In this document: piece after piece, positions 6,207 to 38,031 of the stretch | Layout of the letters: each line of letters starts with the position of its first letter | Numbering within the stretch: position 1 is the first letter of the stretch | NCBI GenBank assembly: GCA_029267445.1 | Contig: JAJUIU010000022.1 | Location: 1 to 47,568 of the forward strand | Direction of reading: 5' to 3' | DNA: 47,568 bases | DNA from: Rhodospirillaceae bacterium | GTDB taxonomy: Bacteria; Pseudomonadota; Alphaproteobacteria; Azospirillales; Azospirillaceae | Translations under genes and position numbers: made by a program | The notes under the pieces: generated by a model | What the model saw: only the letters and a program-made list of their open reading frames with translations | Database searches by the model: none | Told to the model about the DNA's origin: nothing

Positions 6207-9200
6207 ATGGGCATCCATGTCGCGCTGAATCACCGCACGACCTACCGCTACGACCGACCCGTCACCCTCGGCCCCCAGATCGTCCGGCTGCGGCCGGCCC
6301 CGCACACGCGCACGCCGATCCTGTCCTATTCCCTGAAGGTCACGCCCAAGTCCCACTTCCTGAACTGGCAGCAGGACCCCCAGTCCAACTGGCTCGCCCG
6401 CTTCGTCTTCCCGGAGAAGACGACCGAGTTCACGCTGGAGGTGGACCTCGTCGCAGACATGGCGGCGATCAACCCGTTCGACTTCTTCCTGGAACCGCAG
6501 GCGGAGAAGTGGCCCTTCGCCTACGACCCCTGGCTCGCCCATGAACTGAAGCCCTTCCTGGAGGTGCGGGAGGACGGGCCGCTGCTGCGCGCGCTGGCGG
6601 CGGGCGTGGACCGCGCGCCGACCCACACCGTGGACTTCCTGGTCGGGCTGAACCGGACCCTCCAGCAGCGGATCGCCTACGTCATCCGGATGGAGCCCGG
6701 CGTCCAGACCTGCGAGGAGACGCTGGAGATGGGCACCGGGAGCTGCCGCGACAGCGGCTGGCTGCTGGTCCAGCTCCTGCGCCATCTCGGCCTCGCCGCC
6801 CGTTTCGTCTCCGGCTACCTGATCCAGCTGACCCCGGACGTGAAGCCGCTGGAAGGGCCGGAGGGGCCGAGTGCGGACTTCACCGACCTGCACGCCTGGG
6901 CGGAGGTGTACCTGCCCGGTGCGGGCTGGATCGGCCTCGACCCCACCTCCGGCCTGATGGCGGGCGAAGGGCACATCCCGCTCGCCGCCACGCCCGATCC
7001 CGGCAGTGCCGCCCCCGTGACCGGGGCGCTGGAGATGTGCGAGGTCACGTTCGAGCACCACATGCGGGTGACCCGCATCCGGGAGGAGCCCAGGGTCACC
7101 AAGCCCTACGTCCCGGAACAGTGGGCCGCCATCGAGGCGCTGGGCCACGCGGTCGACCGGGAGCTGGAGGCGGGCGACGTCCGCCTGACCATGGGCGGGG
7201 AGCCGACCTTCGTCAGCATCGACGACATGGACGGCGCCGAATGGAACACGGAGGCGCTGGGTCCCGCCAAGCGCCTGCTGGCGGGCGACCTTGTCCGCCG
7301 CCTGAAGCAGCGCTTCGCCCCCGGCGGCCTGCTGCATTACGGCCAGGGCAAATGGTATCCGGGGGAAAGCCTGCCGCGCTGGGCGTTGCAGCTCTACTGG
7401 CGCCGGGACGGCGACGCCCTCTGGGCCAACGCGGACTATCTGGCGGACGAGCGGCGCAACTACGGCTTCGGCCTCGACCATGCCGAGCGCTTCATGCGCC
7501 GTCTGGCGGAGCGGCTGGGCATCGACCCGGACTACGCCCGCGCCGCCTTCGAGGACCCCTGGCACTATATCCGCAAGGAACGGACCCTCCCGGTCAACGT
7601 GGACCCGTTCGAGAGCCGCCTGGACGACGCGGAGGAGCGCGCCCGCCTCGCCCGCGTGTTCGAACGGGGCCTCGACACGCCCATCGGCTGGGCGCTGCCG
7701 CTGAACCGCCGGCACGAGGCCACGGGCCCGGTCTGGCTTTCCAGCCCCTGGCATCTCAGGACGGACCGGCTGGTGCTGGTGCCGGGCGACAGCCCCATCG
7801 GCTACCGGCTGCCGCTGGGCAGCCTGCCCTGGGTGTCCAAGACCGACTACCCCTACGCCTTCGAGCAGGACCCGCTGGAGCCGCGCGCACCCCTGCCCCC
7901 CGGCCCGCGACCGCGCCAGCCCTCAATCAGCAAGGGCTGGACGGAGCCGGTGCAGCCGATCCAGACCATGGCCGACGTCCGCGCCGATATCGGCGCCGAC
8001 ATCCGGCGCGACTATCCGGCCAAGGGCGAAAGCGCCTGGTGGGTCGTGCGCACGGCGCTGTGCATCCAGCCGCGCGACGGGCGCCTCTACGTCTTCATGC
8101 CGCCGACCAGCTATCTGGAGGACTGGCTCGACCTCGTCTCCGCCATCGAAACGACTGCGGTCGATCTGGACATGCCGGTGGTGTTCGAAGGCTACCCGCC
8201 GCCGAAGGACTGGCGCCTCGACTCCGTCGCCGTGACGCCGGACCCCGGCGTGATCGAGGTGAACATCCATCCCGCCCGGTCATGGGACGAGCTGGTGCGC
8301 AACACCACAGACCTCTACGAGGACGCACGCCAGTGCCGCCTGGGCACCGAGAAGTTCATGCTGGACGGGCGCCATGTCGGCACCGGCGGCGGCAACCATG
8401 TGGTGGTCGGCGGCGCCAGCCCCGCCGACAGCCCGTTCCTGCGCCGGCCGGACCTGCTGCGCTCGCTGCTGACATACTGGCAGCATCATCCGTCCCTCTC
8501 CTACCTCTTCTCCGGCATGTTCATCGGCCCGACCAGCCAGCATCCCCGCGTGGACGAGGCGCGGCACGACGCCCTCTATGAGCTCGAGATCGCCTTCCAG
8601 GTGCTGGATCGGGCGGGACCGAACCCGCCGCCCTGGCTGATCGACCGGGCGCTGCGGCACCTGCTGGTGGACGTCACCGGCAACACCCACCGGACCGAGT
8701 TCTGCATCGACAAGCTCTACAGCCCCGACAGCGCCAGCGGCCGCCTCGGCCTCGTGGAGCTGCGCAGCTTCGAGATGCCGCCACATGCGCAGATGAGCCT
8801 CGTCCAGCAGCTCCTGATCCGCGCCCTCATCGCCCGCTTCTGGCGGGAGCCCTACAAGGGCCGCCTCGTGCGCTGGGGGACGGAGCTGAACGACCGCTTC
8901 ATGCTGCCCCACTTCGTCATCCAGGACGTGGCCGACGTGGTCGCGGACCTGCGGGCCGCCGGGTACGCCTTCGACGAATCCTGGTTCGCGCCGCACATCG
9001 CCTTCCGCTTCCCCGTCTACGGCCACGTCACGCAGCGGGGCCTGACGCTGGAGCTGCGCGCGGCGCTCGAGCCCTGGCACGTGCTGGGGGAGGAGCCGGG
9101 GGGCGGCGGCACCGTCCGCTTCGTCGACAGCTCGGTGGAGCGCATGCAGGTGCGGGTGACGGGGGCCAGCGGCGACCGCTTCGTCATCCTTTGCAACGGC

Positions 9201-19004: not shown

Positions 19005-21134
19005 TTACTGTTTTGCTGCGGCGATCAGCCATTCCGCGAACTTCGCGGCAGGCAGGGGGCGGCTGAACAGGAAGCCCTGCACGTCGTCGCAGCCGATCCT
19101 GGCCAGGAAGGCGTGTTGTTCCGGGGTCTCCACGCCTTCGGCGACGACCTTCTTGCCAAGGCTGTGGCAGAGCTGGACCACGGCGGTGGAGATGGCCGCG
19201 TTGTGCGGATCGGCCGGCAGGCCGCGCACGAAGGCTCGGTCCAGCTTGATCTTCTGCGCCTGGAAGCGGCGCAGATACGCCAGCGACGAATAGCCCGTGC
19301 CGAAATCGTCGATGGCGAGGCCGACGCCGAGATCGTGCAGCTTGGCCAGCGTGGCCGCCGCCGCCTCCGCGTCCTTCATGGCCGCACTCTCGGTCACCTC
19401 CAGCGCCAGCCACTCCGGCGCCAGCCCGGCGTCGGACAGGGCCTCGCCAACCATGTCGACCAGCTCGGGCTGCTGGAACTGGCGGGCGGACAGGTTGACC
19501 GCGACCACCACGGGGGGAAGCCCCCGCTTCTGCCAGTCCTTCGCCTGCCGGCAGGCCTCGCGCACGACCCAGCGCCCGATCGGCACGATCAGGTCGGAGC
19601 TTTCGGCCAGAGGGATGAAGTCTCCGGGGGAGATCATGCCCCGTTCCGGGTCGTTCCAGCGCAGCAGCGCCTCGCAGCCGGACGGACGGCCCGCCATGTC
19701 CAGCTGCGGTTGGTAGTGCAGCTCGAAATGCTGCTCGTCCAGGGCGCGCCAGAGCCCGGCGGTCAGCTCCCGCCGCCGCTGCACCTCTGCCGTCATGCCC
19801 TCCAGATAGTAGCGCAGCCGCTCCCCCGCCGCCTTGGCCCGGCCGAGGGCGAGATCGGCGTTCTGCAGCAGGCTGCGGGCGTCGCGCCCGTTCTCCGGAT
19901 AGACCGCGATCCCGCAGCGCGGATCGAAGCGGATCTCGTGGCCCTGGAAATAGAGCGGCTGGGACAGCGTCTCCAGGATGCGGCGGGCCTGGGTTTCCGC
20001 CATTTCGAAGCCGGTCAGGTTCGTCTGCACCACGGCGAAATGGTCGTCGCCCAGCCGCGCCACCGTGTCGGTCTCCCGCGCGCAGGTCTGCAGCTTGATC
20101 GCGGCCCGGCGCAGCGCGTAGTCGCCGACCGTGTAGCCGAAGCTGTCATTGATGTCGTTCAGCCGGCCGAGGTCGATCACCGCCACCCCGACCCCCAGGC
20201 CCGACCGGTCGGCGTTGGAGGTCGCCTCCTGGAGGCGGCTCAGAAGCTGCGTCCGGTTCGGCAGGCCGGTCAGCTCGTCGAAATTGATCAGCGCCTCGGC
20301 CCGTTCCCGATCCCACTGGCGCTCGGTCACGTCCAGCGAGATCGTGACCAGCTTGCGCACGGCACCGTTCGCGTCCTTCAGCGGCACCTTCGAGGTCAGC
20401 CAGACCCGCTCGCGCCCCTCGGCATCGGCGAAGGCCTCCTCATGGTTGAACAGGGCCTTGCCCTCGGCCATCAGCTTGGCGTCCAGCGCGTCGATCGTGG
20501 CGCCGCGCTGGCCCAGCAGGTCCACTGCCGTCCTGCCGATGGCGTCCGCCGCCTTCACCCCGAACACCTCCGCCTGATAGGCGTTGGCCAGCAGGTAGCG
20601 GCCGCCCGTGTCCTTGGCGCTGACCATGGCGGGGATGTTGTCGATGATCGTGCCGAGAAGCTCGGAACTCTCCCCCAACGCGGCGCGGGCGGCCCGCACC
20701 TCCCCGATCTCGCGGAAGGCGCAGAAGAGGATGCTGGTCTTGCCCACGGTCTGCGGGTTGGCCAGGATCTCGACCGGCACCTCGCTGCCGTCCTTGCGCC
20801 GGGCATAGACGGTGATGGGCCGCTCCGGCTGCTGGCGGCCGGACACGAACCGCTCGCGCAGATGCTCGCGCACGCGGGTCAGGTCCCGCTCTGGCACGAT
20901 CGCCTTGATCGACTTGTTGCGCAGCTCCTCCGGCTCATAGCCGAAGACGCCCGCGCAGTCGCCGTCCACCAGGATGATGCGGCTGTCCTTGTCGGTCGCG
21001 AAGATGACGTTGGTGGGCACGCCCCGGTACAGCATGCGGGCGAGATGGATGCGCTCGGCCAGCAGCTCCGGAAGCCGCGTCAGGTCGTCCATCGCCGCCC
21101 CGGCAGCGGCCCGGCCGTTCTCGTTGCTACCCAT
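19005..21134 (-). CDS. PAS-PAS-GGDEF-EAL protein, probable c-di-GMP phosphodiesterase
   Basis: A 709-residue cytoplasmic protein. Two PAS domains come first ([20 protein letters not shown] and [20 protein letters not shown]), then a GGDEF domain at about residues 285-440 and an EAL domain at about 455-705. The GGDEF signature is degraded to GDDHF, so synthesis of c-di-GMP is unlikely. The inhibitory-site motif RETD sits five residues before it as in binding-competent domains. The EAL domain keeps its signature residues: [37 protein letters not shown] and [10 protein letters not shown]. It is predicted to hydrolyse c-di-GMP in response to a PAS signal. No membrane segment is seen. It is divergent from the pentapeptide gene; ATG 21134 is used, and a Met 14 codons later is possible. 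Confidence 0.92.
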
Positions 21135-21240
21135 GGCCCTTTTGACCCATCGCTTTTTGTCCCGTAGCGCGACGCGCGCGATTGCGGGTAATCATATCGA
21201 TTGCGGCGCCTCCCGTCAGGCGCCCTCTCGAGGTCACATT
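21135..21240. promoter_or_regulatory. Divergent promoter region with a 9-bp direct repeat
   Basis: This 106-bp gap must hold both promoters. CGATTGCGG occurs at 21179-21187 and again at 21198-21206, 19 bp start to start, close to two helical turns. This spacing suits two regulator subunits on one DNA face. No clear -35/-10 pair was found. Confidence 0.3.
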
Positions 21241-22521
21241 ATGCCGAAGCAGACCGACCAGCGTCCATTGGAACGCCTGACCCAGGCCGAACTGGATGAG
21301 GTGCTCCGGCGCCATGAACTGTACAGGCGTGCGCGGCACGGTGGCGCTCGGGCCGTGCTGTCCTTCTTCGATCTTTCGGGCCTGAACCTCGCCGGTAAGG
21401 ACCTGACCGACGCCGACCTCGCCGGCTCCATCCTGTCCCACGCCAACCTCGAGGGCTGCACCCTCGACCGCGCCAACCTGTTCGCCTGCGACCTGCGGGA
21501 GGCGCGGATGAAGGGGTCGAGCCTCGTCCGCACCGACCTGCGCGGCGCCTGCCTGCGGGCCGCCGACCTGTCGGGGGCGGCCCTGCTGGACGCCGACCTG
21601 CGGGAGGGCACGCTCGCCGAGAAGGACAAGCTGGGCGAGTTGCACATCAAGAACATCGAGACGGAGCTTGGCCCGTCGGAGATGCAGAAGGCGGACTTCC
21701 GGGGTGCCAACCTGACCGGCGCCCGGCTGGTCGGCGCCCTGGCCGGCAGTGCGGACTTCAGCGACGCGGTGATGAAGCGCTGCAAGATGACCCGCGTCGA
21801 CCTCCGCAACGCCAATCTCGAGGGTGCCGATCTGGAGGGGTCGGACCTGTCCGGCGCCAACCTGGAGGGTGCCAACCTCAAGGACGCGAACCTCGCCGGC
21901 ACGACCCAGAATCTGACGGAGTTCAAGGGGGCGGACCTGACGGGCGTCCTGTCGGACAAGCCCGCCGGGCGCGATCCGAACACGCTGGAAGCGCCGCTGG
22001 ACGAACTGCTGGACATGCACGCCGCCTGGGTCGCCAGCACCGGGCAGTCGGGGCGCATGCTGGACGTCACCGACGTCGATCTCCGCAGCGCCGGCGCGCT
22101 GGAGGGGGCGGTGCTGACCGCCATCAAGGCGGAAGGTGCCTGCTTCTACGGCCGCGACCTGACCGGCACGCAGTTCCAGGCCGCCCACCTGCGGGAGGCG
22201 GATTTCCGCGCCTGCGTGCTGAAGGGGGCGGATTTCCGGGGCACCGACCTGCGGGGTGCGCGCCTGGACAAGGCCGACCTCAGCGGGGCGCGGCTCAGCC
22301 CGCTGGTCGTGACCAAGGACCGCAAGCTGCCGGCCCAGCTCGCCCGGGCCAGCCTGAAGCACGCCGTCCTGCGCGACGCGGATCTGCGCGGCATCGACCT
22401 GACCGGCGCCGATCTGACGGGAGCGGACCTGCGCGGCGCGCAGATGGACGGGGCCGGGCTCACCGGCGCTGTGACCACCGGCGCGCTTCTGCCCCATGGC
22501 GTGACGGCGAAGGCCTCCTGA
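21241..22521 (+). CDS. Pentapeptide-repeat protein
   Basis: A 426-residue protein, mostly A(D/N)LxX pentapeptides that fold as a right-handed quadrilateral beta helix (LSGLNLAGKDLTDADLAGS, GADLEGSDLSGANLEGANL, GADLTGADLRGAQMDGAGL). Three repeat blocks are separated by non-repeat stretches near residues 130-155 and 240-285, so it may form several helix segments. An N-terminal helix pair (LERLTQAELDEVLRRHEL) precedes the repeats. Some family members mimic DNA and protect gyrase, but most have no known function and nothing here selects one. The ATG at 21241 has GAGG about 8 nt upstream. The stop lies 7 nt from the stop of the convergent peptide-binding protein, and a hairpin spans both. Confidence 0.92.
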   Translation: MPKQTDQRPLERLTQAELDEVLRRHELYRRARHGGARAVLSFFDLSGLNLAGKDLTDADLAGSILSHANLEGCTLDRANLFACDLREARMKGSSLVRTDLRGACLRAADLSGAALLDADLREGTLAEKDKLGELHIKNIETELGPSEMQKADFRGANLTGARLVGALAGSADFSDAVMKRCKMTRVDLRNANLEGADLEGSDLSGANLEGANLKDANLAGTTQNLTEFKGADLTGVLSDKPAGRDPNTLEAPLDELLDMHAAWVASTGQSGRMLDVTDVDLRSAGALEGAVLTAIKAEGACFYGRDLTGTQFQAAHLREADFRACVLKGADFRGTDLRGARLDKADLSGARLSPLVVTKDRKLPAQLARASLKHAVLRDADLRGIDLTGADLTGADLRGAQMDGAGLTGAVTTGALLPHGVTAKAS

Positions 22522-25266: not shown

Positions 25267-25294
25267 TTGATTCGGGGGCCGCTTGGGGTACACC
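25267..25294 (+). promoter_or_regulatory. Promoter candidate of the TonB-dependent receptor
   Basis: TTGATT (25267-25272) and TACACC (25289-25294) are 16 bp apart and would start RNA near 25301, 27 nt before the ATG. The -35 matches four of six consensus bases, the -10 three. Confidence 0.35.
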
Positions 25295-25327
25295 CGCGCA
25301 TCCCCGTATGCCGGTCCCCCCGCCCCG

Positions 25328-27463
25328 ATGCTCCGCCGCCTCCTCCTCGCCGCCACGGCGCTCGCAGCACCGCTTCCAGCCGCTCCGCATCCCGTCTGGG
25401 CCGCCGAAAGCCCGCTGGACGAGATCATCGTGACGGCCACCCGCCGGGCGGAAAGCGTGCGCGACGTGCCGGCCAGCGTGTCCACGGTGGACCGCGCCGA
25501 CTTCGACGCCCGCGCCACCCGCTTCGTCGGCGAGGAGCTGCGCGGGCTGCCCGGCGTGGTCGTCGGTTCCAACGATGCCGGCACCTACACCAAGCTGACC
25601 GTGCGCGGCGTGCCCAACCGCATCCACAACGACACGCTGGCCGTGCTGGTCGATGGCGTGCCGTTCCTGACCGGCGATGACGAGGCGGACCTGGAGCAGC
25701 TCCCCTTCGGCGCCGTGGCGCGGGTCGACCTCGTGCGCGGGCCCATGTCCGCCCTCTACGGCCGGGGCGCCATCGCGGGCACCATCAACTACATCACCCG
25801 GGAGGTCGGGCGGGAACCGGCGACGGCGGTGACGGCCGGGCTGGGTGGCCATGGCTGGCGCCGGCTGGGCGCGCTGGCGCAGACGCCGACCTCGCCCAAC
25901 GGCGCGCTGCTCGTGTCCGGGGAGGCGCAGCGGGCGGACGGCTGGCGCGACCGCACCGGCCGGCGTGAGGACGCCCTGTTCGCCAAGCACCGCCTCGACC
26001 TCTCCGGCTGGGGCGCGCTGAACCTGACCGCCACCTGGGTGTCCACCGACCAGAACTTGGCGGGAGAGCTGCCGTTGGACGCGCGGGGGGAGCCCGCTCC
26101 CCTCCCCGGCGGCCGGGCCGCCAACTGGAACAACGAGGATGCCGGCTTCGCCAAGCGGATGCTGACCGGCACCGCCATCCTGGACACCGACATCGGCAGC
26201 GGTCTCACCGCCGCGACCCGCCTGCACGCCCGCCGGGCGCTGACCACCGCCATCCAGGGCTTCTTCAGCCCCTACGATCCGGCGGCGGGTACCGTGACCT
26301 TCACCGGCTTCCGCGTGGACAACGACACCGACACCCTGTTCGCGGAACAGTCGCTGGACTGGCGGATCGGCCCCGTGCGCCTGCTGGGCGGTGCCAGCGT
26401 GGAGCGGGTGGCGAGCGCGCCGGTGGAGACTTGGACGGGCGAGTTCGACTTCGGCCCCCTGTTCTACGCCCAGCGGCGCGACGCCCGCACCGGCGCGTTC
26501 ATCAACCGCGACCAATGGCGCCGGGACATCCTGCTGAACGCCGACGCCGTCAGCCTGAACCACGCCGCCTACGCGCAGGCCGACTTGGAGCTTGGCAGGC
26601 TAACCCTCTCGGCCGGCGCCCGCTTCGACCGCTTCTCCCGCCGGGTCCACTATGGGCCAAGCGGCAGCGGCTTCGGCCCGGATCCGGTGGAGACGATCGC
26701 CGACATCGACCAGCGGATCAGCCCCAAGGCCTCGGCGACCTGGGCCATCAGCGACGCGGTCACCGCCTATGTCGCCTACGGCGCCGGGTTCAGCCCCGGC
26801 TTCGGGCCGGTCTGGTCCTTCCGGGGCCGCGACACGCGGCTGGCGCCGGAGCTTGCCGACAACCTCGAGGCGGGCGTGAAGGGCGACGCGCTGGACGGCC
26901 GGCTGTCGGCGAGCCTCACCGTCTACGAGCTGCGTCGACGCGACCTGCTGCAGCTCCTGCCCGTGGAGGGGACCGCCCGCACCATCAACACCGGCCGCCA
27001 GCGGTCGCGCGGGCTGGAGCTTGAGGCGACCCTGCGGCCGGTGGACGGGCTGACGCTGCTGGCGACCTACGGCCTGACCGACAGTGTATGGCTGGAGAAC
27101 CGCTTCCTGGAGCCCTTCACCGGCCGCCCCTTCGACTTCGGCGGCAAGGATGTCGCCGGCGTGCCCCGCCATGCCGGGCGGGTGGAGGCGGTGGGCGTTC
27201 TGGGTGCCGTTGAGGCACGTGCTTGGATCGACCTGTCCGGCGACTACGCCTACGACAACGCCAATTCCGTCCGCGCCGGGGGCTACGCCCTGTGGAACGC
27301 CGCACTCGCCTGGGCACCGACCGACCGGCTGGAGCTGACGGCCACCGCGCGGAACCTGTTCGACCGGGAGGTGAACCTGGTGGTCGCCAACAATGACGGC
27401 CCCTTCGCCTACTTCCCCCAGCCGCCGCGCGAGGTCTTCCTGAACGCGACAGTGCGGTTCTAG
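25328..27463 (+). CDS. TonB-dependent outer-membrane receptor
   Basis: A 711-residue outer-membrane protein. A signal peptide (MLRRLLLAATALAAPLPA) is followed by a TonB-box-like LDEIIVTATRR. The plug domain (about residues 35-160) includes LRGLPGVVVGSND, TVRGVPNRI and VDLVRGPMSALYGRGAIAGTI. A 22-strand barrel follows and ends in Phe (NATVRF), the signal for Bam insertion. Such receptors import ferric siderophores, cobalamin or other scarce ligands using TonB energy. The look is of a siderophore-type receptor, but no siderophore or Fur-box gene is beside it. The ATG at 25328 is chosen because it starts the signal peptide, though no strong ribosome site is seen. It converges on an unrelated gene 12 nt away. 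Confidence 0.94.
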   Translation: MLRRLLLAATALAAPLPAAPHPVWAAESPLDEIIVTATRRAESVRDVPASVSTVDRADFDARATRFVGEELRGLPGVVVGSNDAGTYTKLTVRGVPNRIHNDTLAVLVDGVPFLTGDDEADLEQLPFGAVARVDLVRGPMSALYGRGAIAGTINYITREVGREPATAVTAGLGGHGWRRLGALAQTPTSPNGALLVSGEAQRADGWRDRTGRREDALFAKHRLDLSGWGALNLTATWVSTDQNLAGELPLDARGEPAPLPGGRAANWNNEDAGFAKRMLTGTAILDTDIGSGLTAATRLHARRALTTAIQGFFSPYDPAAGTVTFTGFRVDNDTDTLFAEQSLDWRIGPVRLLGGASVERVASAPVETWTGEFDFGPLFYAQRRDARTGAFINRDQWRRDILLNADAVSLNHAAYAQADLELGRLTLSAGARFDRFSRRVHYGPSGSGFGPDPVETIADIDQRISPKASATWAISDAVTAYVAYGAGFSPGFGPVWSFRGRDTRLAPELADNLEAGVKGDALDGRLSASLTVYELRRRDLLQLLPVEGTARTINTGRQRSRGLELEATLRPVDGLTLLATYGLTDSVWLENRFLEPFTGRPFDFGGKDVAGVPRHAGRVEAVGVLGAVEARAWIDLSGDYAYDNANSVRAGGYALWNAALAWAPTDRLELTATARNLFDREVNLVVANNDGPFAYFPQPPREVFLNATVRF

Positions 27464-29240: not shown

Positions 29241-29258
29241 GATTTGTCCGGACAAATC
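29241..29258. promoter_or_regulatory. 18-bp perfect palindromic operator candidate
   Basis: GATTTGTCCGGACAAATC is a perfect palindrome between the divergent amidotransferase and cysteine-hydrolase genes, immediately followed by TTGACA. The core GTCCGGAC has the GT-N4-AC form seen in several GntR-family operators, and a GntR/UTRA regulator is encoded at 33721-34551. Binding by that protein is inferred. Confidence 0.55.
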
Positions 29259-29287
29259 TTGACAGCGGGCCGGGCCGCCGCGACTCT
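29259..29287 (+). promoter_or_regulatory. Promoter candidate with consensus TTGACA for the cysteine-hydrolase operon
   Basis: A perfect -35 TTGACA (29259-29264) directly follows the palindromic operator. The hexamer 17 bp on (GACTCT, 29282-29287) is a poor -10, so activation or a different sigma factor may be needed. Confidence 0.35.
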
Positions 29288-29324
29288 CCCGCCAGGACCG
29301 TCACGCATGGATGGGGAGACGCGC

Positions 29325-29996
29325 GTGGAGACCTCGAACCTGACGCCGCGCGAATGGTACGCGCAGATCAAGGCCCGGCCGAGCCGCGCCAAGTTCGGCT
29401 TCGGGACGCGGCCGGCCCTGGTCAACATCGACCTGCAAAAGGCCTACACGGCAGTGGGGGAGTTCGCCACGGCCTACGAGACCGATCCGAACCAGCTCCC
29501 CTACATCGACGCGCTGGCCGGGCTCTGCCGCTCCAAAGCCGTGCCCGTGGTCTGGACGTTTGTGGCCTACATGGAATCGGGCGAGGATGCGGGCGTCTGG
29601 GGCACCCGCACCAACACGCCTGACAGCCTGCAGAACATCAAGGTCGGGTCCCGCCGCGCCGAGTTCGACGACCGGCTGACGATCGACCGGGTGAAGGACG
29701 TCATCATCAACAAGCGCATGGCGTCCCCCTTCTTCGAGACGAACCTCGGCAGCCTGCTGACCTGGCACAAGGTGGACACGGTGATCATCACCGGCGGCAG
29801 CACCTCGGGATGCGTGCGCGCCTGCGCGGTGGACAGCCTGAGCCGGGGATACCGCACCATCGTGGTGGAGGAGTGCGTGGCCGACAAGCACGAGATCCCG
29901 CACTTCGCCAACCTCGCCGACATGCTTCTGAAGTACGCCGATGTGGAAAGCTATTCCACTGTAAGGGAGTATCTGGAGCGACTGCCGGCGGCATGA
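29325..29996 (+). CDS. Isochorismatase-family cysteine hydrolase (N-carbamoylsarcosine amidase-like)
   Basis: A 223-residue alpha/beta hydrolase with an intact Asp-Lys-Cys triad: Asp36 in LVNIDLQKAY, Lys130 in IINKRMASPF and Cys163 in GGSTSGCVRACAVDS. The general form resembles N-carbamoylsarcosine amidohydrolase and related carbamoyl amidases, which release ammonia and CO2 from N-carbamoyl groups. GTG at 29325 has GGGGAGA 5 nt upstream; an in-frame ATG at 29307 is the alternative and would add six residues. It is the first gene of a plus-strand run with a MAPEG protein and two deacetylase-fold proteins, behind an operator-like palindrome. Its place beside PuuE-like proteins suggests a role in ureide or cyclic-amide breakdown. 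The exact substrate is unknown. Confidence 0.88.
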   Translation: METSNLTPREWYAQIKARPSRAKFGFGTRPALVNIDLQKAYTAVGEFATAYETDPNQLPYIDALAGLCRSKAVPVVWTFVAYMESGEDAGVWGTRTNTPDSLQNIKVGSRRAEFDDRLTIDRVKDVIINKRMASPFFETNLGSLLTWHKVDTVIITGGSTSGCVRACAVDSLSRGYRTIVVEECVADKHEIPHFANLADMLLKYADVESYSTVREYLERLPAA

Positions 29997-30036
29997 CCGT
30001 CCGCCGGATCGCGGTCCGACGAACTCCGGAGAACCC

Positions 30037-30453
30037 ATGCCCCAGTCCGTGATCATCCTTCCCATGGCGGCGATGGTGCTGGTCACCTTCGCCCTCGCCC
30101 TCAACCTCCTGCGGCTGCGCAGTGCGGCCGTGCGGGCGGGGCAGATCCGCTTCAACCGCTTCCGAGCCATGCAGGGCGGCGAGGTGCCAGAGCATGTCGC
30201 CGTGGCGGAGCGCGCCTTCCACAACGCGCTGGAGGTGCCGCCGCTCTTCTACGCGGCCTGCATCGCGGCACTGGCGCTCGGCGCCGTGGATCCGGTGGCC
30301 ATGGCGCTGGCCTGGACCTTCGTCGCGGCGCGGATCGTCCAGGCGCTGATCCATCTCACCTACAACAACATCATGCACCGGCTCTTCGCCTACATGGCGG
30401 GCTGGCTGGTGCTCCTGGCGTTCTGGGCGTGGCTGGCCCTGGGCGCGTTCTGA
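30037..30453 (+). CDS. MAPEG-family membrane protein
   Basis: A 138-residue integral membrane protein with four hydrophobic segments (about residues 5-25, 72-92, 90-110 and 116-136). It carries the MAPEG pattern RFNRFRAMQGGEVPEHVAVAERAFHNALE followed by PPLFYAACIAAL. Eukaryotic MAPEG proteins use glutathione in eicosanoid metabolism or conjugation; bacterial members are mostly uncharacterised. The ATG follows GGAG at normal spacing. It sits 40 nt after the cysteine hydrolase and 23 nt before the first deacetylase, so it is in the same operon. Why a catabolic operon would hold it is unclear; detoxification of a reactive intermediate is one possibility. Confidence 0.85.
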   Translation: MPQSVIILPMAAMVLVTFALALNLLRLRSAAVRAGQIRFNRFRAMQGGEVPEHVAVAERAFHNALEVPPLFYAACIAALALGAVDPVAMALAWTFVAARIVQALIHLTYNNIMHRLFAYMAGWLVLLAFWAWLALGAF

Positions 30454-30476
30454 TCCCGCGGGCGGAGGCGACACAC

Positions 30477-31433
30477 GTGAGGAGCGATCCCGGTCTCTAC
30501 GGCTACAATCCCTGGCCCGGCCGGCCCAAGGTCACGTGGCCGAACGGCGCAAGGGTCGCCTTCTGGGTGGCCCCGAACATCGAGTTCTACGAGCTGGCTC
30601 CGCCTCCCAACCCCAGCCGCACGCCCTGGGGCCGCCCGATCCCGGACGTCGTCGCCTACAGCCACCGCGACTACGGCAACCGCGCCGGCCACTGGCGGAT
30701 GATGGAGGTGATGGACAAGCACGGCGTGCGCGGCTCCATCAGCCTCTCCATCGCGCTCTGCGACCATCATCCGGAGATCATCGAGGCCTGCGCCGCCCGG
30801 AACTGGGAGTTCTTCAGCCACGGCATCTACAACACCCGCTACTGCTACGGCATGGACGAGGCGCAGGAGCGGGCGATCATCCAGGACAGCATCGACACGG
30901 TGATGCGCGCCACCGGGCAGCGGATCGACGGGTGGCTGGCACCTGCCCTGACCCATACCGAACGCACCATGGACCTGCTGGCGGACATGGGTCTCGCCTA
31001 CACCTGCGACCTGTTCGGCGACGACCAGCCGCAGCCGGTGAAGGTGGCGAAGGGCCGGTTCGTCTCCGTCCCCTACTCGCTCGAGATGAACGACGTCATC
31101 GTCTACAACTCCAACAACATCACGCCGCGCCGCTACGCCGACATCCTGAAGGCCAATTTCGACCGGCTGTACGAGGAGGGGGCGGAGAACGGCACGGTGA
31201 TGTGCATCCCGCTGCACGCCTTCCTGGTCGGCCAGCCGCACCGCATCGCCGGGCTGGACGAGGCGCTGGCCTACATCACCGCGCACAAGGACGTCTGGGT
31301 CACCACGGGGCGGGAGATCGCCCGCTGGTACCTGGACCACCATTACGACGCGGCGGTCGCGCATATCGACGCGGTTGAGGCGAAGCAGGCGAGGCTCCGC
31401 GCCCGTCTGCCGAACCACCGCGCGGGAGGCTGA
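30477..31433 (+). CDS. Polysaccharide deacetylase-fold protein, PuuE/allantoinase-like (first copy)
   Basis: A 318-residue protein of the NodB/PuuE carbohydrate esterase fold. Landmarks are WPNGARVAFWVAPNIEFYE, HRDYGNRAGHWRMMEVMDKHG, SLSIALCDHHPEII, FFSHGIYNTRY, GWLAPALTHTERTMDLLADM and HAFLVGQPHRIAGLDEAL. PuuE-type members open cyclic amides such as allantoin rather than deacetylating sugars. The conserved SHG histidine is kept here. GTG at 30477 has GGAGG 8 nt upstream and gives a natural N-terminus (RSDPGLYGYNPWPGRP). The next gene, a paralogue, starts 4 nt after the stop. Cytoplasmic: no signal is present. Activity on a cyclic ureide or amide is inferred from the subfamily and the adjacent carbamoyl amidase-like gene. 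Confidence 0.88.
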   Translation: MRSDPGLYGYNPWPGRPKVTWPNGARVAFWVAPNIEFYELAPPPNPSRTPWGRPIPDVVAYSHRDYGNRAGHWRMMEVMDKHGVRGSISLSIALCDHHPEIIEACAARNWEFFSHGIYNTRYCYGMDEAQERAIIQDSIDTVMRATGQRIDGWLAPALTHTERTMDLLADMGLAYTCDLFGDDQPQPVKVAKGRFVSVPYSLEMNDVIVYNSNNITPRRYADILKANFDRLYEEGAENGTVMCIPLHAFLVGQPHRIAGLDEALAYITAHKDVWVTTGREIARWYLDHHYDAAVAHIDAVEAKQARLRARLPNHRAGG

Positions 31434-31437
31434 CGCC

Positions 31438-32364
31438 ATGGCCCTGCCCGACGATTACCTGAAGTACCCGATGCGCCGCTACGGCATGGACCATGACCGC
31501 TACGACTGGTCCATCCTGCTCCGGCGCAAGCCCGTGGTCTGGCCCGGCGGTGCGCGCGTGGCGCTGTGGGTGGTGCCGACACTGGAATTCTTCCCGCTCG
31601 ATCAGCCGGCCAAGCCATTCAAGGCGCCGGGCGGCATGGTGACCCCCTACCCCGACCTGCGGCACTACACGCTGCGCGACTACGGCAACCGGGTCGGCGT
31701 CTGGCGGGTGTTCCAGGCGCTGGACGATCTCGGCCTCAAGGCCAGCGTCGCCTTCAATTCCAAGGTGGCGGAGCGTTATCCCCTGCTGCTCCAGGCCGTC
31801 GTGCAGCGCGGGTGGGAGGTTGTGGCCGGCGGCGTCGACATGGGCCGCCTGCACTTCGGCGGGATGGACGAGGCCGCCGAGCGGGCGCAGATCGCGGAGT
31901 GCCTGTCGGTCCTGCGCGCCCTGTCCGGCCAGCCGGTGACCGGCTGGCTGTCCCCGGCCAAGAGCCAGTCCGAGCGCACGCCCGACCTGCTGGCGGAGGC
32001 CGGCGTCCGCTACATGTGCGACTGGATCAACGACGACATGCCGTTCCCCTTCCGCACGGCATCGGGCCCCCTCACCGCCATGCCGCACACGCTGGAGCTG
32101 GACGACCAGACCATCATCTTCGGCTACAAGCACAGCGAGGAGGATTTCGTCGAGCAGGTGGTGGACGCCTTCGACACCCTCTACGCCGAGGCGGAGACCC
32201 AAGGCGGGCGCATCCTCTGCCTCTCCATCCACCCCTGGGTCAGCGGCCAGCCCCACCGGATCGCGGCCCTGGAAGCCGCCCTGGCCCACATCGCCCGCCA
32301 CAAGGGCGTGTGGAGCGCCACGGGTTCGGAAATCCTGGCGGAATGGGAGCGGCAGCAGGGGTGA
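31438..32364 (+). CDS. Polysaccharide deacetylase-fold protein, PuuE-like (second copy)
   Basis: A 308-residue paralogue of the preceding gene with the same framework: WPGGARVALWVVPTLEFF, LRDYGNRVGVWRVFQALDDLG, GWLSPAKSQSERTPDLLAEAG and HPWVSGQPHRIAALEAAL. At the position of the first copy's SHG histidine it reads VVAGGVDMGRLHFGGMDEA, so that His is replaced by Gly. Either the two have different substrates or this copy is a partner subunit of the first. ATG 31438 has GGGAGG overlapping the end of the previous gene. Family membership is firm; activity is uncertain. Confidence 0.87.
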   Translation: MALPDDYLKYPMRRYGMDHDRYDWSILLRRKPVVWPGGARVALWVVPTLEFFPLDQPAKPFKAPGGMVTPYPDLRHYTLRDYGNRVGVWRVFQALDDLGLKASVAFNSKVAERYPLLLQAVVQRGWEVVAGGVDMGRLHFGGMDEAAERAQIAECLSVLRALSGQPVTGWLSPAKSQSERTPDLLAEAGVRYMCDWINDDMPFPFRTASGPLTAMPHTLELDDQTIIFGYKHSEEDFVEQVVDAFDTLYAEAETQGGRILCLSIHPWVSGQPHRIAALEAALAHIARHKGVWSATGSEILAEWERQQG

Positions 32365-32846: not shown

Positions 32847-33710
32847 CTACTCGTACCGCTTGCCCGTCTCCAGCATCGCGTCCAGCCCGATGACCGCGTT
32901 CAGGCCCATCAGGTCGTGCATGCGGCCCTGCATGGCGGCGGTCGAGCCGTCGCGGCGGATGATGTCGTAAAGCTCCCGCGCCGCCGTCGCCACCACGCGG
33001 GCCAGCGCGCCGGGGAAGATGACCAGCCGGAAGCCCAGCGCCTCCAGGTCCCCGGCGTTGGAGATCGGCGTGTCGCCGCCCTCCACCATGTTCGCCAGGA
33101 GCGGCACCTTCGGCCCCAGCCGGGCGGTGATCGTCCGCATCTGCTCCAGGCTTTTCGGCGCCTCGACGAACAGCACGTCCGCACCGGCCTCGGCATAGGC
33201 GTGCGCCCGGTCCAGGGCCGCCTCGAACCCCTCCACCGCGATGGCGTCGGTGCGGGCGATGACCAGCGTACCCGCCTGCCGCGCGTCCAGGGCGGCCTTC
33301 ACCTTGCCCACCATCTCCGCCTTGGGGATCACGGCCTTGCCTTTCAGGTGGCCGCAGCGTTTCGGGCTCGCCTGGTCCTCCAACTGGATGGCCGTGGCGC
33401 CCGCCCGCTCGAACACGCGCATGCAGCGCTGCACGTTCAGCGCGTTGCCCCAGCCCGTGTCGGCGTCGACGATCAGCGGCAGGTCCACCCGGTCGCGGAT
33501 GTTCGCGACCGTGTCCGCCACCTCCGTCATCATGGTGAGGCCGATGTCCGGCCGGCCCAGCCGGGTGTACGCCACGCTGGCGCCCGACAGGTACAGCGCC
33601 TCGTGCCCCGCCTGCTGCGCGATCAGGGCCGAAAGCGCGTCATAGACGCCGGGCGCCAAGACGATGCGCGGTTCCGCCAGCCGCCGCCGCAAGCCCTCCG
33701 CGAGGGTCAT
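32847..33710 (-). CDS. Isocitrate lyase / PEP mutase family enzyme
   Basis: A 287-residue TIM-barrel enzyme. Diagnostic parts are VLAPGVYDALSALIAQQAG, LIVDADTGWGNALNV (Mg-binding Asp pair), AIQLEDQASPKRCGHLKGK (the KRCGH loop with the catalytic Cys used by lyases of the family) and VIARTDAIAVEGFEAALDRA. Members cleave 2-methylisocitrate, oxaloacetate-type or carboxyphosphonopyruvate-like substrates; the Cys in the loop points to a C-C lyase rather than a phosphonate mutase. It follows the GntR regulator by 10 nt on the same strand and is probably co-transcribed with it, so it belongs to the regulon. The precise acid cleaved is not readable. Confidence 0.9.
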   Translation of the reverse strand: MTLAEGLRRRLAEPRIVLAPGVYDALSALIAQQAGHEALYLSGASVAYTRLGRPDIGLTMMTEVADTVANIRDRVDLPLIVDADTGWGNALNVQRCMRVFERAGATAIQLEDQASPKRCGHLKGKAVIPKAEMVGKVKAALDARQAGTLVIARTDAIAVEGFEAALDRAHAYAEAGADVLFVEAPKSLEQMRTITARLGPKVPLLANMVEGGDTPISNAGDLEALGFRLVIFPGALARVVATAARELYDIIRRDGSTAAMQGRMHDLMGLNAVIGLDAMLETGKRYE

Positions 33711-33720
33711 GCCGGGCCCC

Positions 33721-34551
33721 TCACTCGCCCGCCGTCAGGGCCGGCTTCCAGCTGCCCGGCTCCTCCGACGGGGTCAGGTCCATCTGGTACTGGAACATGT
33801 CCGGGCGGTACAGCACGGTCAGATGGTCGAACGGCGCGTCGTGGCTGTCGAACAGCACGCGGGTCAGCACCAGCAGCGGCGCCCCCACATCCACCTTCAG
33901 CAGCTGCGCCACCCGCGCGTCCGCCAGGGTGGCCGACAGGGTCTGCTTTGCGCGCTTGATCTTCACGCCCGCCCGCTCGAACGCGGCAAGGCGCAGCGCC
34001 CCTTCGAAATCCGCGCGGGTGAAGCTGTCGCCCACCGCCGGGATGGTGTGGCTGGTCAGGTGCGAGAACGGCTCCCCGTCCAGGGACCGGATGCGCACCA
34101 TGCGCAGCACCTGCGTGCCCGGCGGCACAGCCAGTGCATGGGCGATGTGCGGCGGCGGCAGTTCGCGGCCGAACTCGATCAGGGCCGCCGCCGTCCGCTT
34201 GCCATAGGCGGCGAGGTTGTCCAGCAGTCCGCCCAGTGGCGCCTGCACCGGCTGCGGCTGGTAGGTGTGGGTCACGTGGGTGCCGCGCCCGCGCTGGCGG
34301 ACGACGAGCCCGGCGGATGCCAGATCGTCCAGCGCCCGCTTCACCGTGATTCGGCTGACGTTGAACTCGCGGGCGAGCTCGTGCTCGCTGGGAAGCTGGT
34401 CGCCATGCGCGAAGGTCCCGCTCAGGATCTTCTCGCGCAGGATGACGTAAAGCTGGTGGTAAAGCGGGGTCGGGGACCGTTCGTCGATCCCGTCACGGTC
34501 GGCTTCGGTCAGCCAGTCGGCCTTCACGATTTCCTGCGGCGTCGCGCCCAT
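33721..34551 (-). CDS. GntR-family regulator with UTRA domain (HutC type)
   Basis: A 276-residue transcription factor. The winged-helix domain at about residues 28-98 has the GntR signature PLYHQLYVILREKILSGTF, LPSEHELAREFNVSRITVKR and LVVRQRGRGTHV. The C-terminal UTRA effector domain runs from about 115 to 265 (VPPGTQVLRMVRIRSLDGEP through LTVLYRPDMFQYQMDL). HutC-type proteins usually repress nearby catabolic genes until a pathway metabolite binds UTRA. It is divergent from the DUF1330-nitrilase-ALDH operon, with inverted repeats in the 183-bp gap, and is followed by the lyase gene. It probably controls both flanking operons and perhaps the palindrome at 29241. Confidence 0.94.
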   Translation of the reverse strand: MGATPQEIVKADWLTEADRDGIDERSPTPLYHQLYVILREKILSGTFAHGDQLPSEHELAREFNVSRITVKRALDDLASAGLVVRQRGRGTHVTHTYQPQPVQAPLGGLLDNLAAYGKRTAAALIEFGRELPPPHIAHALAVPPGTQVLRMVRIRSLDGEPFSHLTSHTIPAVGDSFTRADFEGALRLAAFERAGVKIKRAKQTLSATLADARVAQLLKVDVGAPLLVLTRVLFDSHDAPFDHLTVLYRPDMFQYQMDLTPSEEPGSWKPALTAGE

Positions 34552-34734: not shown

Positions 34735-35031
34735 ATGGCCGGTTGCCTCATGGTGATATACGCCCGCATCGCCGACCCGGATCGATTCAAGGCGTACGCC
34801 GCCGTCACACCCGGCCTCGTCGCGCAGTATGGCGGTCGCTACCGTGTGCTCAACGGGAATCCGCAGGTGCTGGAGGGGGACTGGCCCTTCCGCACCACCG
34901 CCGTCTCGGAATGGCCGTCGCGGGAGGCCGCCCTCGCCTTTTGGAATTCCCCTGAATACGCCGAAGCGAAGGCGCTGCGCGCCGGGGCCGGCGACTTCCA
35001 GGTGATCCTTCTCGACCAGCTTCCCGCCTGA
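34735..35031 (+). CDS. DUF1330-family protein
   Basis: A 98-residue ferredoxin-like dimeric alpha/beta-barrel protein. It shows VIYARIADPDRFKAYAAVTP, GRYRVLNGNPQVLEGDW and a C-terminal part SEWPSREAALAFWNSPEYAEAKALRA typical of DUF1330. Its relatives include monooxygenases and isomerases of small compounds, but DUF1330 itself has no settled reaction. TTGGAG lies 8 nt before the ATG. It is the first gene of the plus-strand operon divergent from gntR, 8 nt before the nitrilase-superfamily gene. It may act on a ring-opened intermediate; this is inferred from position only. Confidence 0.88.
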   Translation: MAGCLMVIYARIADPDRFKAYAAVTPGLVAQYGGRYRVLNGNPQVLEGDWPFRTTAVSEWPSREAALAFWNSPEYAEAKALRAGAGDFQVILLDQLPA

Positions 35032-35039
35032 ACCTTCGG

Positions 35040-36083
35040 ATGCCGCCCGCGATGTCAGACGCCCCCGCCTACCGCGCCCTCGCCCTGCAGGTCGTCTGCG
35101 ACGCGGTGAACGGCGATCCCGACCGGGCTGCCGCGCGCGCCCGGATGACGGCGTCGCTGGACCGTCTGGAACGGCAGATCAAGGCCAGCAAGGGTTTCAT
35201 CGGCCAGGATCTGCGCCTCGTGGTCCTGCCGGAGTATTTCCTGACCGGCTTCCCCATGGGCGAAAGTGCCGACGCCTGGGCCGACAAGGCGGCGCTGGAG
35301 ATCGACGGACCGGAGTACGAACGGCTGGGCGCCATCGCCCAGGCCACGGGGACCTTCATCGCCGGCAACGCCTACGAGCTCGACCCCAACTTCCCCGGCC
35401 TCTACTTCCAGGCCTGCTTCGTCGTCTCGCCGACGGGAGCCGTGGTGCTGCGCTATCGGCGGCTCAACTCCATGTTCGCGCCCACCCCCCATGACATCTG
35501 GTCCCGCTACCTCGACGTCTACGGGCTGGACGGCGTCTTCCCCGTGGCGCGGACGGAGATCGGCAACCTCGCCGCCGTCGCCTCGGAGGAGATCCTTTAT
35601 CCCGAGATCGCCCGCTGCCACGCCATGCGCGGGGCTGAGATCTTCCTCCACTCCACCAGCGAGGTCGGCAGCCCCGCCCTGACGCCGAAGGACGTGGCCA
35701 AGCGCGCCCGCGCGTTCGAGAACATGGCCTATGTCGTGTCCGCCAATTCGGCCGGGATCGCGGGCACGGCCATCCCCATCGCCTCCACCGACGCCATGTC
35801 CAAGATCGTCGACCCGACCGGCCTCGTCCTGGCGGAGGCGGGATACGGCGAAAGCCTCGCCGCCACGGCGGAGATCGACCTGGGCGCGCTGCGCCGTCTG
35901 CGCCGCCGCCCCGGCATGGCCAACATGCTGTCGCGCCAGCGGTTCGAGCTGTTCGCGCGGAGCTACGCCGGGCACAGCTTCTACCCGGCGGACACGCTGG
36001 AGGGGGTGAAGCCGTCCCGCCAGCACTTCCTGGACACCCAGCGCGCCGTCATCGAACGGCTGGCCAAGGACGGGGTGATCTGA
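35040..36083 (+). CDS. Nitrilase-superfamily protein with Glu-Arg-Ser in place of Glu-Lys-Cys
   Basis: A 347-residue protein with the overall carbon-nitrogen hydrolase fold: LVVLPEYFLTGFPMGES (Glu65), GNAYELDPNFPGLYF, VLRYRRLNSMFAPTPHD, NLAAVASEEILYPEIARCHA and GAEIFLHSTSEVGSP. In active members the second block carries a catalytic Lys and the third a catalytic Cys. Here they read Arg141 and Ser182, so ordinary thioester chemistry is not possible. The rest is well conserved, so it is unlikely to be a decaying gene; it may have different chemistry, bind without cleaving, or serve as a subunit. A Met four codons in is an alternative start. The aldehyde dehydrogenase begins 3 nt after the stop, within the same operon. 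Confidence 0.87.
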   Translation: MPPAMSDAPAYRALALQVVCDAVNGDPDRAAARARMTASLDRLERQIKASKGFIGQDLRLVVLPEYFLTGFPMGESADAWADKAALEIDGPEYERLGAIAQATGTFIAGNAYELDPNFPGLYFQACFVVSPTGAVVLRYRRLNSMFAPTPHDIWSRYLDVYGLDGVFPVARTEIGNLAAVASEEILYPEIARCHAMRGAEIFLHSTSEVGSPALTPKDVAKRARAFENMAYVVSANSAGIAGTAIPIASTDAMSKIVDPTGLVLAEAGYGESLAATAEIDLGALRRLRRRPGMANMLSRQRFELFARSYAGHSFYPADTLEGVKPSRQHFLDTQRAVIERLAKDGVI

Positions 36084-36086
36084 ACC

Positions 36087-37523
36087 ATGGTCGATACCGC
36101 CGACCGGATCGCCGTCCGCAACCCCCGCACCGGGCAGGTCGATTACCATTTCACGCCCGCCGACCCGTCCCGCATCGCGGCCGTCACGGCCGGGCTGCGG
36201 CAGGCCCAGCCCGCCTGGGCGGCCCTGGGCGTGGCGGGCCGGGTGGCCGTGCTGCAGGCCTGGAAGGCCGAACTGGTGAAGGCGCGCGACGCGCTCCAGC
36301 AGGCGCTGCTGGCCGATACCGGCCGCTGGCGGGAGACGGTGCTGGAGGTCGACGCCGTCCCCCGCCTGATCGACCGCTGGTGCGCCGAGGCGCCGGCGCT
36401 GCTGGAGGCGCCGCCGGCGCGGCCCAGCCGCATCGTGCCCAGCGTGGCGGTGGACGCCATCCTAACCCCCTACCCGCTGGTCGGCGTCATCAGCCCCTGG
36501 AACTTCCCGCTGCTCTTGTCGCTGATTGACACGGTGCCCGCCCTGCTGGCGGGCTGTGCCGCCGCCGTGAAGCCCAGCGAGGTGACGCCCCGCTTCATCG
36601 AACCCCTGGCCGCCACCATCGCGGCCGTGCCGGACCTCGCGGCCGTGCTCGCCGTGCTGCCGGGTGCCGGGGCCACCGGAGCCGCCCTGATCGGCAATGT
36701 CGACGCGGTCTGCTTCACCGGCTCCGTCGCCACCGGCCGCAAGGTGGGCGAGGCGGCGGCCAAGGCCTTCATCCCCGCCTTCCTGGAACTGGGCGGCAAG
36801 GACCCGGCCATCGTCATGGCCAGCGCCGACGTGGACCGTGCGGCGTCCGCCTGCCTGTCCGGCTCCATCAGCAACGCCGGGCAGGCCTGCCAGTCGCTGG
36901 AGCGCATCTATGTCGACCGGCGCGTCTATGCGGCCTTCCTGGAGGCCCTGGTGCTGAAGGCCGGGCGCATCCGCCTCGCCTGGCCGGACCCGGCGCAGGG
37001 GGAGATCGGCCCCATCATCTTCGACCGGCAGGCGGAGATCATCGCCGACCATGTCACCGACGCCGTGTCCAAGGGCGCCAAGTGCCTGACCGGCGGCAAG
37101 ATCGAGCGGCACGGCGGCGGCGCCTGGGTGGCCCCCACCGTGATGGTCAACGTCAACCACGACATGAAGGTGATGCGGGAGGAGAGCTTCGGCCCCCTGC
37201 TGCCCGTCATGCCCTTCGACACGGAGGAGGAGGCCGCCCGCCTCGCCAATGACAGCGACTACGGCCTGTCGGCCGCCGTCTTCGCCGGGTCGGAGGAGGA
37301 GGCGCGCGCCATGGCGGCGCGGCTCGAGGCCGGGGCCATCAGCATCAACGACGCGGCGCTGACCGCCATGGTCTACGACGCCGAGAAGAACAGCTTCAAG
37401 CTCTCGGGCCTGGGCGGCTCCCGCATGGGGCCCAGCGGCCTGACCCGTTTCCTCCGCCGCAAGGCGCTGCTGATCAACCGGGCTGACTCCCCCTCCCCCT
37501 GGTGGATCGCGGGGCCGGCCTGA
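36087..37523 (+). CDS. NAD(P)-dependent aldehyde dehydrogenase
   Basis: A 478-residue enzyme of the ALDH superfamily. The cofactor motif GVISPWNFPLLLS, CFTGSVATGRKVGE, catalytic Glu234 in LELGGKDPAIV and nucleophile Cys268 in SNAGQACQSLERIYVD are all intact, as is EESFGPLLPVMPFD near the C-terminus. It oxidises an aldehyde to the acid with NAD(P)+. It follows the nitrilase-superfamily gene by 3 nt and belongs to the GntR-linked operon, so the pathway probably passes through a semialdehyde. Which one cannot be told. The protein is cytosolic with no signal peptide. Confidence 0.95.
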   Translation: MVDTADRIAVRNPRTGQVDYHFTPADPSRIAAVTAGLRQAQPAWAALGVAGRVAVLQAWKAELVKARDALQQALLADTGRWRETVLEVDAVPRLIDRWCAEAPALLEAPPARPSRIVPSVAVDAILTPYPLVGVISPWNFPLLLSLIDTVPALLAGCAAAVKPSEVTPRFIEPLAATIAAVPDLAAVLAVLPGAGATGAALIGNVDAVCFTGSVATGRKVGEAAAKAFIPAFLELGGKDPAIVMASADVDRAASACLSGSISNAGQACQSLERIYVDRRVYAAFLEALVLKAGRIRLAWPDPAQGEIGPIIFDRQAEIIADHVTDAVSKGAKCLTGGKIERHGGGAWVAPTVMVNVNHDMKVMREESFGPLLPVMPFDTEEEAARLANDSDYGLSAAVFAGSEEEARAMAARLEAGAISINDAALTAMVYDAEKNSFKLSGLGGSRMGPSGLTRFLRRKALLINRADSPSPWWIAGPA

Positions 37524-37572: not shown

Positions 37573-38031
37573 ATGTCCGACATCCGCACCGGCATGCCGG
37601 TCCTGCTCCGCCATCTCGGCGAGTGGGAGGGCGAGTACATCTACATCGACGCCGACGGCAACGTGATCGACCGGCACAAGTCCCACCTCACCTGCAAGTT
37701 CCCGGACGGCGGTGAGTACGACTACTACCAGATCAACCGCTACATGTGGGCCGACGGCCGCACCGAGGAGCATCACTTCCCGGCCAAGTACTGCGACGGC
37801 CGGATCTGGTGGGACACGGAGCGGATCAAGGGCTGGGCCTCGGACGTGGCCCTCGACATGGCCGGCCGCACCACCATGCTGACCTGGGTCCGCAAGGACA
37901 TGCCGGACCATTACCTCTACGAGATGATCCAGATCTCCGCCGACAACACCAAGCGCGCGCGGACCTGGCACTGGTTCCGCAACGACGAGCTCTATCAGCG
38001 CACGATCATCAAAGAGCGCCGGGTCAAGTGA
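37573..38031 (+). CDS. Small beta-rich protein, possibly calycin/DUF3598-like
   Basis: A 152-residue protein rich in Trp, Tyr, His and Asp with alternating patterns of beta strands (HLGEWEGEYIYIDADGNV, HLTCKFPDGGEYDYYQIN, TTMLTWVRKDMPDHYLYE, RTWHWFRNDELYQRT). The N-terminal LGEWEGEY and strand layout recall DUF3598/lipocalin-like barrels; this likeness is tentative. A GGGAG ribosome site precedes the ATG. It lies 49 nt after the aldehyde dehydrogenase in the same direction and appears to close the operon. A small-molecule binding role is possible. No catalytic motif is recognised. Confidence 0.75.
   Translation: MSDIRTGMPVLLRHLGEWEGEYIYIDADGNVIDRHKSHLTCKFPDGGEYDYYQINRYMWADGRTEEHHFPAKYCDGRIWWDTERIKGWASDVALDMAGRTTMLTWVRKDMPDHYLYEMIQISADNTKRARTWHWFRNDELYQRTIIKERRVK

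Follow-up and report, generated by a model that had tools for sequence, protein, structure and literature searches.

A nitrilase-superfamily clade with Arg and Ser in place of the catalytic Lys and Cys, associated with one aldehyde dehydrogenase in five bacterial phyla

Catalysis in the nitrilase superfamily is defined by a Glu-Lys-Cys triad. In some clades of the cephalopod (squid) vanin/symplectin-like proteins the triad reads E-R-S or E-K-S, and serine was acquired there on several independent occasions (PMC5541922). Searches of the open literature for cysteine-less or serine nitrilases, nitrilase together with RCC reductase in cyanobacteria, the DUF names and imide hydrolases returned only this cephalopod precedent, and no description of a bacterial E-R-S family was found there. 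The bacterial E-R-S clade described here is an old, horizontally spread group within the carbon-nitrogen hydrolase (nitrilase) superfamily. Its representative in the 47,568-nucleotide stretch of Rhodospirillaceae DNA that was analysed (the window), and the codons discussed below, are as follows.

35040..36083, + strand: E-R-S nitrilase/amidase-fold gene, 347 aa, with an alternative ATG start at 35052
35097..35099, + strand: Cys20 codon; clade-invariant, in 92/92 sequences with a residue at this column
35232..35234, + strand: Glu65 codon (gag); general-base Glu of the superfamily, kept
35409..35411, + strand: Gln124 codon; Gln in 93/93 of the clade, Asn in 88/95 relatives
35460..35462, + strand: Arg141 codon (cgg); Lys in 95/95 relatives
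35493..35495, + strand: Asp152 codon; aligns to E142 of AmiE, the second of its catalytic Glu residues
35583..35585, + strand: Ser182 codon (tcg); nucleophile Cys in 85/95 relatives

CN_hydrolase (PF00795) was the sole Pfam family on the 347-aa protein (99.9 bits against a cut-off of 23.2, E 2e-28), and the alpha-beta-beta-alpha fold of this domain was also found in an AlphaFold2 model (input with 42 orthologues; mean pLDDT 91.7, pTM 0.92), which matched many superfamily members with Z scores of 28-32. The best structural neighbours in VIA-align were formamidase 5g3o and AmiE 2uxy, both with a Z score of 32.3 and with rmsd values of 2.5 Å over 268 residues and 3.2 Å over 294 residues, respectively; as modelled, the fold is that of an amidase. 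NCBIfam amidase and carbamoyl hydrolase models gave weak matches far under their cut-offs; for example, the aliphatic amidase and formamidase equivalogs, NF009802 and NF009803, scored 52.5 against 427 bits and 57.4 against 406 bits.

In a profile alignment built from 42 orthologues, E65 fell opposite the Glu in FPEYS of aliphatic amidase, R141 opposite the Lys in KYRK, S182 opposite the Cys in CDDGNYPE and D152 opposite the second Glu in IEGW. The preliminary description had read the triad positions as Glu65, Arg141 and Ser182, and both residues and numbering proved right when the codons were read against this alignment. Realignment cannot restore an active-site Cys and Lys, since no gap interrupts the alignment of the blocks RYRRLN and ASEEILYPE. 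Active-site geometry we infer from alignment only. Two peptide patterns, scanned against 84,980 species genomes, yielded 80 loci with 62-69% identity (62 in Cyanobacteriota, 10 in Bacteroidota, 5 in Acidobacteriota, 2 in Pseudomonadota and 1 in Chloroflexota), which together with orthologues from whole-genome searches gave 93 distinct orthologous sequences. We found that Glu65, Arg141, Ser182, Tyr112, Glu113, Gln124, Ser144, Asp152, Trp154 and Glu184 were invariant in 93/93 orthologues and that Glu208 was kept in 92/93, with Cys20 being the only invariant Cys. Because E65 and residues 110-113 formed part of the search patterns, their invariance among the scan loci is in part built in; R141, Q124, D152 and S182 were absent from the patterns. 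Arg and Ser are thus fixed across the whole clade, which rules out a lone mutation in the window genome, and the presence of orthologues in five phyla rules out restriction to one lineage. The fold places the protein in the superfamily; judged by the triad that defines catalysis, it lies outside the catalytic class, with Glu kept, Lys replaced by Arg and Cys replaced by Ser throughout.

The reading frame is intact in the window and in the orthologues. Pairwise Nei-Gojobori estimates of dN/dS were 0.06-0.09 in close ortholog pairs; those for the window gene versus its relatives were 0.10-0.23, values affected by saturated dS. The E-R-S clade is under purifying selection, and the pseudogene reading is rejected.

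Homologues retaining the normal triad, which would have pointed to an isolated change in the window gene, were sought within the clade and none was found; it is the outgroups that carry Lys and Cys. Of 95 non-orthologous relatives, all had Lys at the R141 column, 85 had Cys at the S182 column and 88 had Asn at the Q124 column. In a maximum-likelihood tree the clade was monophyletic (100/99 branch) and nested among Cys-bearing groups. The nearest outgroups (for example, L128, L176, L203 and L117) share about 29-36% identity with it, have an E-K-C triad and have the TPHD/SPHD block in common with it. In a few relatives (L177, L204 and L005) Ala or Gly stands where the catalytic Cys would be; in two of these, the TPHD-type L177 and L204, it is Ala while Glu and Lys are kept, representing further independent losses. 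Loss of the Cys thus happened on several branches within this part of the superfamily, and among the sequences compared it was accompanied by Lys-to-Arg and Asn-to-Gln changes in the E-R-S clade only. The E-R-S clade was joined at 95/92 to another Cys-less, Lys-keeping group, a join made uncertain by long branches.

The gene is flanked in the window by the following features.

29244..32364, + strand: isochorismatase-family amidase and two PuuE-like polysaccharide deacetylases, possibly of the same pathway
32847..33710, - strand: PEP-mutase/isocitrate-lyase family enzyme; relatives with 41-44% identity adjoin the E-R-S gene in 7 Nostocales loci
33721..34551, - strand: GntR/UTRA regulator, divergent
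34735..35031, + strand: DUF1330 protein, 8 bp upstream; also near the E-R-S gene or the ALDH in several other proteobacterial loci
36087..37523, + strand: aldehyde dehydrogenase (ALDH), the constant partner; orthologue of PDB 4h7n (E 4e-171)
37573..38031, + strand: small calycin/lipocalin-like protein (DUF3598_N), nearby in 45/83 compared loci

Gaps of 8 bp between the DUF1330 and E-R-S genes, 3 bp between the E-R-S and ALDH genes and 49 bp between the ALDH and calycin-like genes fit the earlier placement of the E-R-S gene among genes of one operon. A same-strand ALDH gene lies directly downstream of the E-R-S gene in 67 of the 83 loci, at a median gap of 78 bp, and an ALDH orthologue (51-60% identity) was present in 21/22 genomes with the E-R-S gene versus 1/16 genomes without it (Fisher p 1.6e-8, kinship ignored). 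The orthologue is missing from a single carrier, G457, a small MAG of 2.8 Mb, and in G455, G458 and G460 a distance of about 6-20 kb separates the two genes, which share a contig. Both catalytic motifs of the ALDH, those of the Cys and the Glu (GQ-C and ELGGK), are intact. In two cyanobacterial genomes the E-R-S gene has recently been lost beside an intact ALDH: in L166 (G492) it is missing upstream of 6571, and in L167 (G484) only its last ~50 codons are left (7858-8007). The ALDH can therefore persist without the E-R-S gene.

The isochorismatase at 29244-32364 is N-carbamoylsarcosine amidohydrolase-like and is followed by the two PuuE-like genes; orthologues of all three (59, 66 and 46% identity) occur together near the E-R-S gene in L031, and the set looks like one for catabolism of a cyclic amide, ureide or imide. 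Ring-opening or amidase-type genes (PuuE-like, isochorismatase, amidohydrolase) recur near the E-R-S gene across loci, suggesting such a compound as a candidate substrate. Upstream of this set, a TonB-dependent receptor (25283-27463) is perhaps its uptake gene, and a 515-aa protein with many pentapeptide repeats is encoded at 20974-22521. A PrpB-type assignment of the PEP-mutase-family gene was rejected, as its score fell under the curated cut-off. In Nostocales (L034-L113), an RCC-reductase (PF06405) homologue, a bilin-reductase relative, lies directly upstream of the E-R-S gene in 25/83 loci, always on the same strand and about 20-50 bp away; these loci have no evident chlorophyll-breakdown context. 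A paper covering RCC reductases and bilin reductases leaves nitrilases unmentioned (PMC10151467). HisZ, penicillin-binding and similar genes in many Nostocales loci were judged to be conserved bystanders of closely related genomes.

The clade-wide fixation of Arg and Ser, the monophyly, the purifying selection and the ALDH partnership all agree with the selected role that had been proposed for this protein. We regard it as moderately probable, and favour over a binding or scaffold pseudoenzyme, that this role is carried out by a working pocket, remodelled to act without thiol catalysis, that would supply or prepare the ALDH substrate. The thiol machinery would have been replaced as a set, with Cys becoming Ser182, Lys becoming Arg141 and the adjacent Asn becoming Gln124, while Glu65 was kept and Asp152, Glu113 and Glu184 were held invariant. 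A small molecule would be bound and processed in the old active-site pocket through Glu65, Ser182 and Arg141; Arg141 may hold or polarise a carboxylate or acyl oxygen, and Ser182 may be either a weaker nucleophile or an oxyanion/hydrogen-bond donor. The reaction may belong to a catabolic pathway that yields an aldehyde for oxidation by the ALDH encoded alongside. Ordinary amide or nitrile hydrolysis is probably not involved, because two residues thought indispensable have been swapped and the protein travels with an ALDH of its own. Ser by itself may not be catalytic, since Cys-to-Ser mutants of relatives serve as inactive substrate-trapping forms according to the structure titles of 5h8l and 5nz5. 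The retention of the ALDH in two genomes that have lost the E-R-S gene also counts against this reading.

Those same titles, which indicate that Cys-to-Ser normally kills activity in the superfamily, together with the almost unfailing presence and proximity of one ALDH, would also suit a subunit without catalytic activity (binding, allosteric or scaffold) that assembles with the ALDH or channels its substrate, a possible but rather unlikely alternative. A scaffold need not keep the old pocket, yet conservation is located in the active-site positions themselves. In addition, at least two E-R-S proteins have twin-arginine-type N-termini and are predicted to be exported, one in L095 (5707-7020; TRRSFLKGSALGATGL) and one in L171/G341 (L171 about 1345-2499, - strand; MNRRDVLMTALAAGASL), whereas the ALDH of L095, the one locus in which the partner was read, has no export signal (MSERLGVRNPRTG...); this argues against an obligatory complex, and a physical association would not be universal. 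It is the frozen pocket residues and these two Tat signals that lead us to prefer a working pocket to a pure scaffold.

A more far-reaching proposal, which we consider improbable as it stands, is that the amidase fold has acquired new chemistry (for example, non-hydrolytic or Ser/Arg/acid-based) in an undescribed pathway of cyclic amide or imide breakdown, possibly of tetrapyrrole-derived compounds. It draws on the recurrence of PuuE-like, isochorismatase and dimethylmalate-lyase-like genes, on the RCC-reductase homologue upstream in Nostocales and on the calycin-like protein, which resembles bilin-lyase and nitrobindin folds; specifically, its model is a lipocalin-type barrel matching BFA1, DUF3598 2o62, the S-type phycobiliprotein lyase CpeS and nitrobindin. 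A tetrapyrrole link of the E-R-S pathway should be taken as a lead only.

Less likely still is a relocated thiol nucleophile, in which Cys20, just after the first strand, would replace the lost Cys and the protein would still be a thiol amidase. The invariance of Cys20 wherever an orthologue has a residue at that column speaks for this idea, but a Cys also occurs at or near this loosely aligned column in 13/95 relatives that keep the normal Cys, and the Lys-to-Arg change would be left unexplained. Finally, that the gene is decaying, or altered by a lone mutation in the window genome, has next to no chance of being correct: the two cyanobacterial losses beside an intact ALDH resemble decay, but 93/93 fixation over five phyla, the intact frame and dN/dS of 0.06-0.09 have already refuted it for the family, in keeping with the earlier opinion that simple decay was unlikely.

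Two of three triad residues were exchanged jointly and have since stayed fixed in at least five bacterial phyla beside a constant ALDH, which makes the E-R-S clade a test case for an enzyme fold changing its chemistry or becoming a binding protein. The labels nitrilase, amidase or N-carbamoyl hydrolase that automatic annotation gives these proteins are probably incorrect. Nostoc offers a defined, cultivable system for the family, and the structure of the partner has already been solved. This structure, PDB 4h7n ('Aldehyde dehydrogenase'), is an orthologue of the partner ALDH over its whole length and concerns the partner, not the E-R-S protein itself; we take it to be from Anabaena.

Among the systems with which the E-R-S clade can be compared, the second Cys-less nitrilase-like group (L056 3633-5006, L064 2784-4088 (+); relatives in L130 and L134) is encoded in the same gene group, its gene immediately preceding the E-R-S gene in these two acidobacterial loci. 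Like the E-R-S clade, to which it is sister in the tree by an uncertain join, it lacks the Cys; unlike it, this group keeps Lys, has the motifs FHEFPITGW, KQWKARN and SSVQWEPE and shares only ~29% identity, and it has a Tat signal and is predicted to be exported. The cephalopod vanin-like proteins have the same triad letters as E65/R141/S182 (PMC5541922), but they are animal proteins with an extra base domain, whose description links them neither to an ALDH operon nor to these bacterial sequences; in structural alignment, vanin-1 matched the model over the nitrilase domain only (model residues 6-296). The closest in structure are AmiE (2uxy, 2plq) and AmiF (2dyu, 5g3o), with VIA Z scores of ~32 and the general-base Glu in common; AmiE could be aligned over model residues 6-347, and its second acidic position is retained in the E-R-S protein as Asp. 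Identity to these amidases is, however, ~20%, and the E-R-S protein has Ser, Arg and Gln where they have Cys, Lys and Asn.
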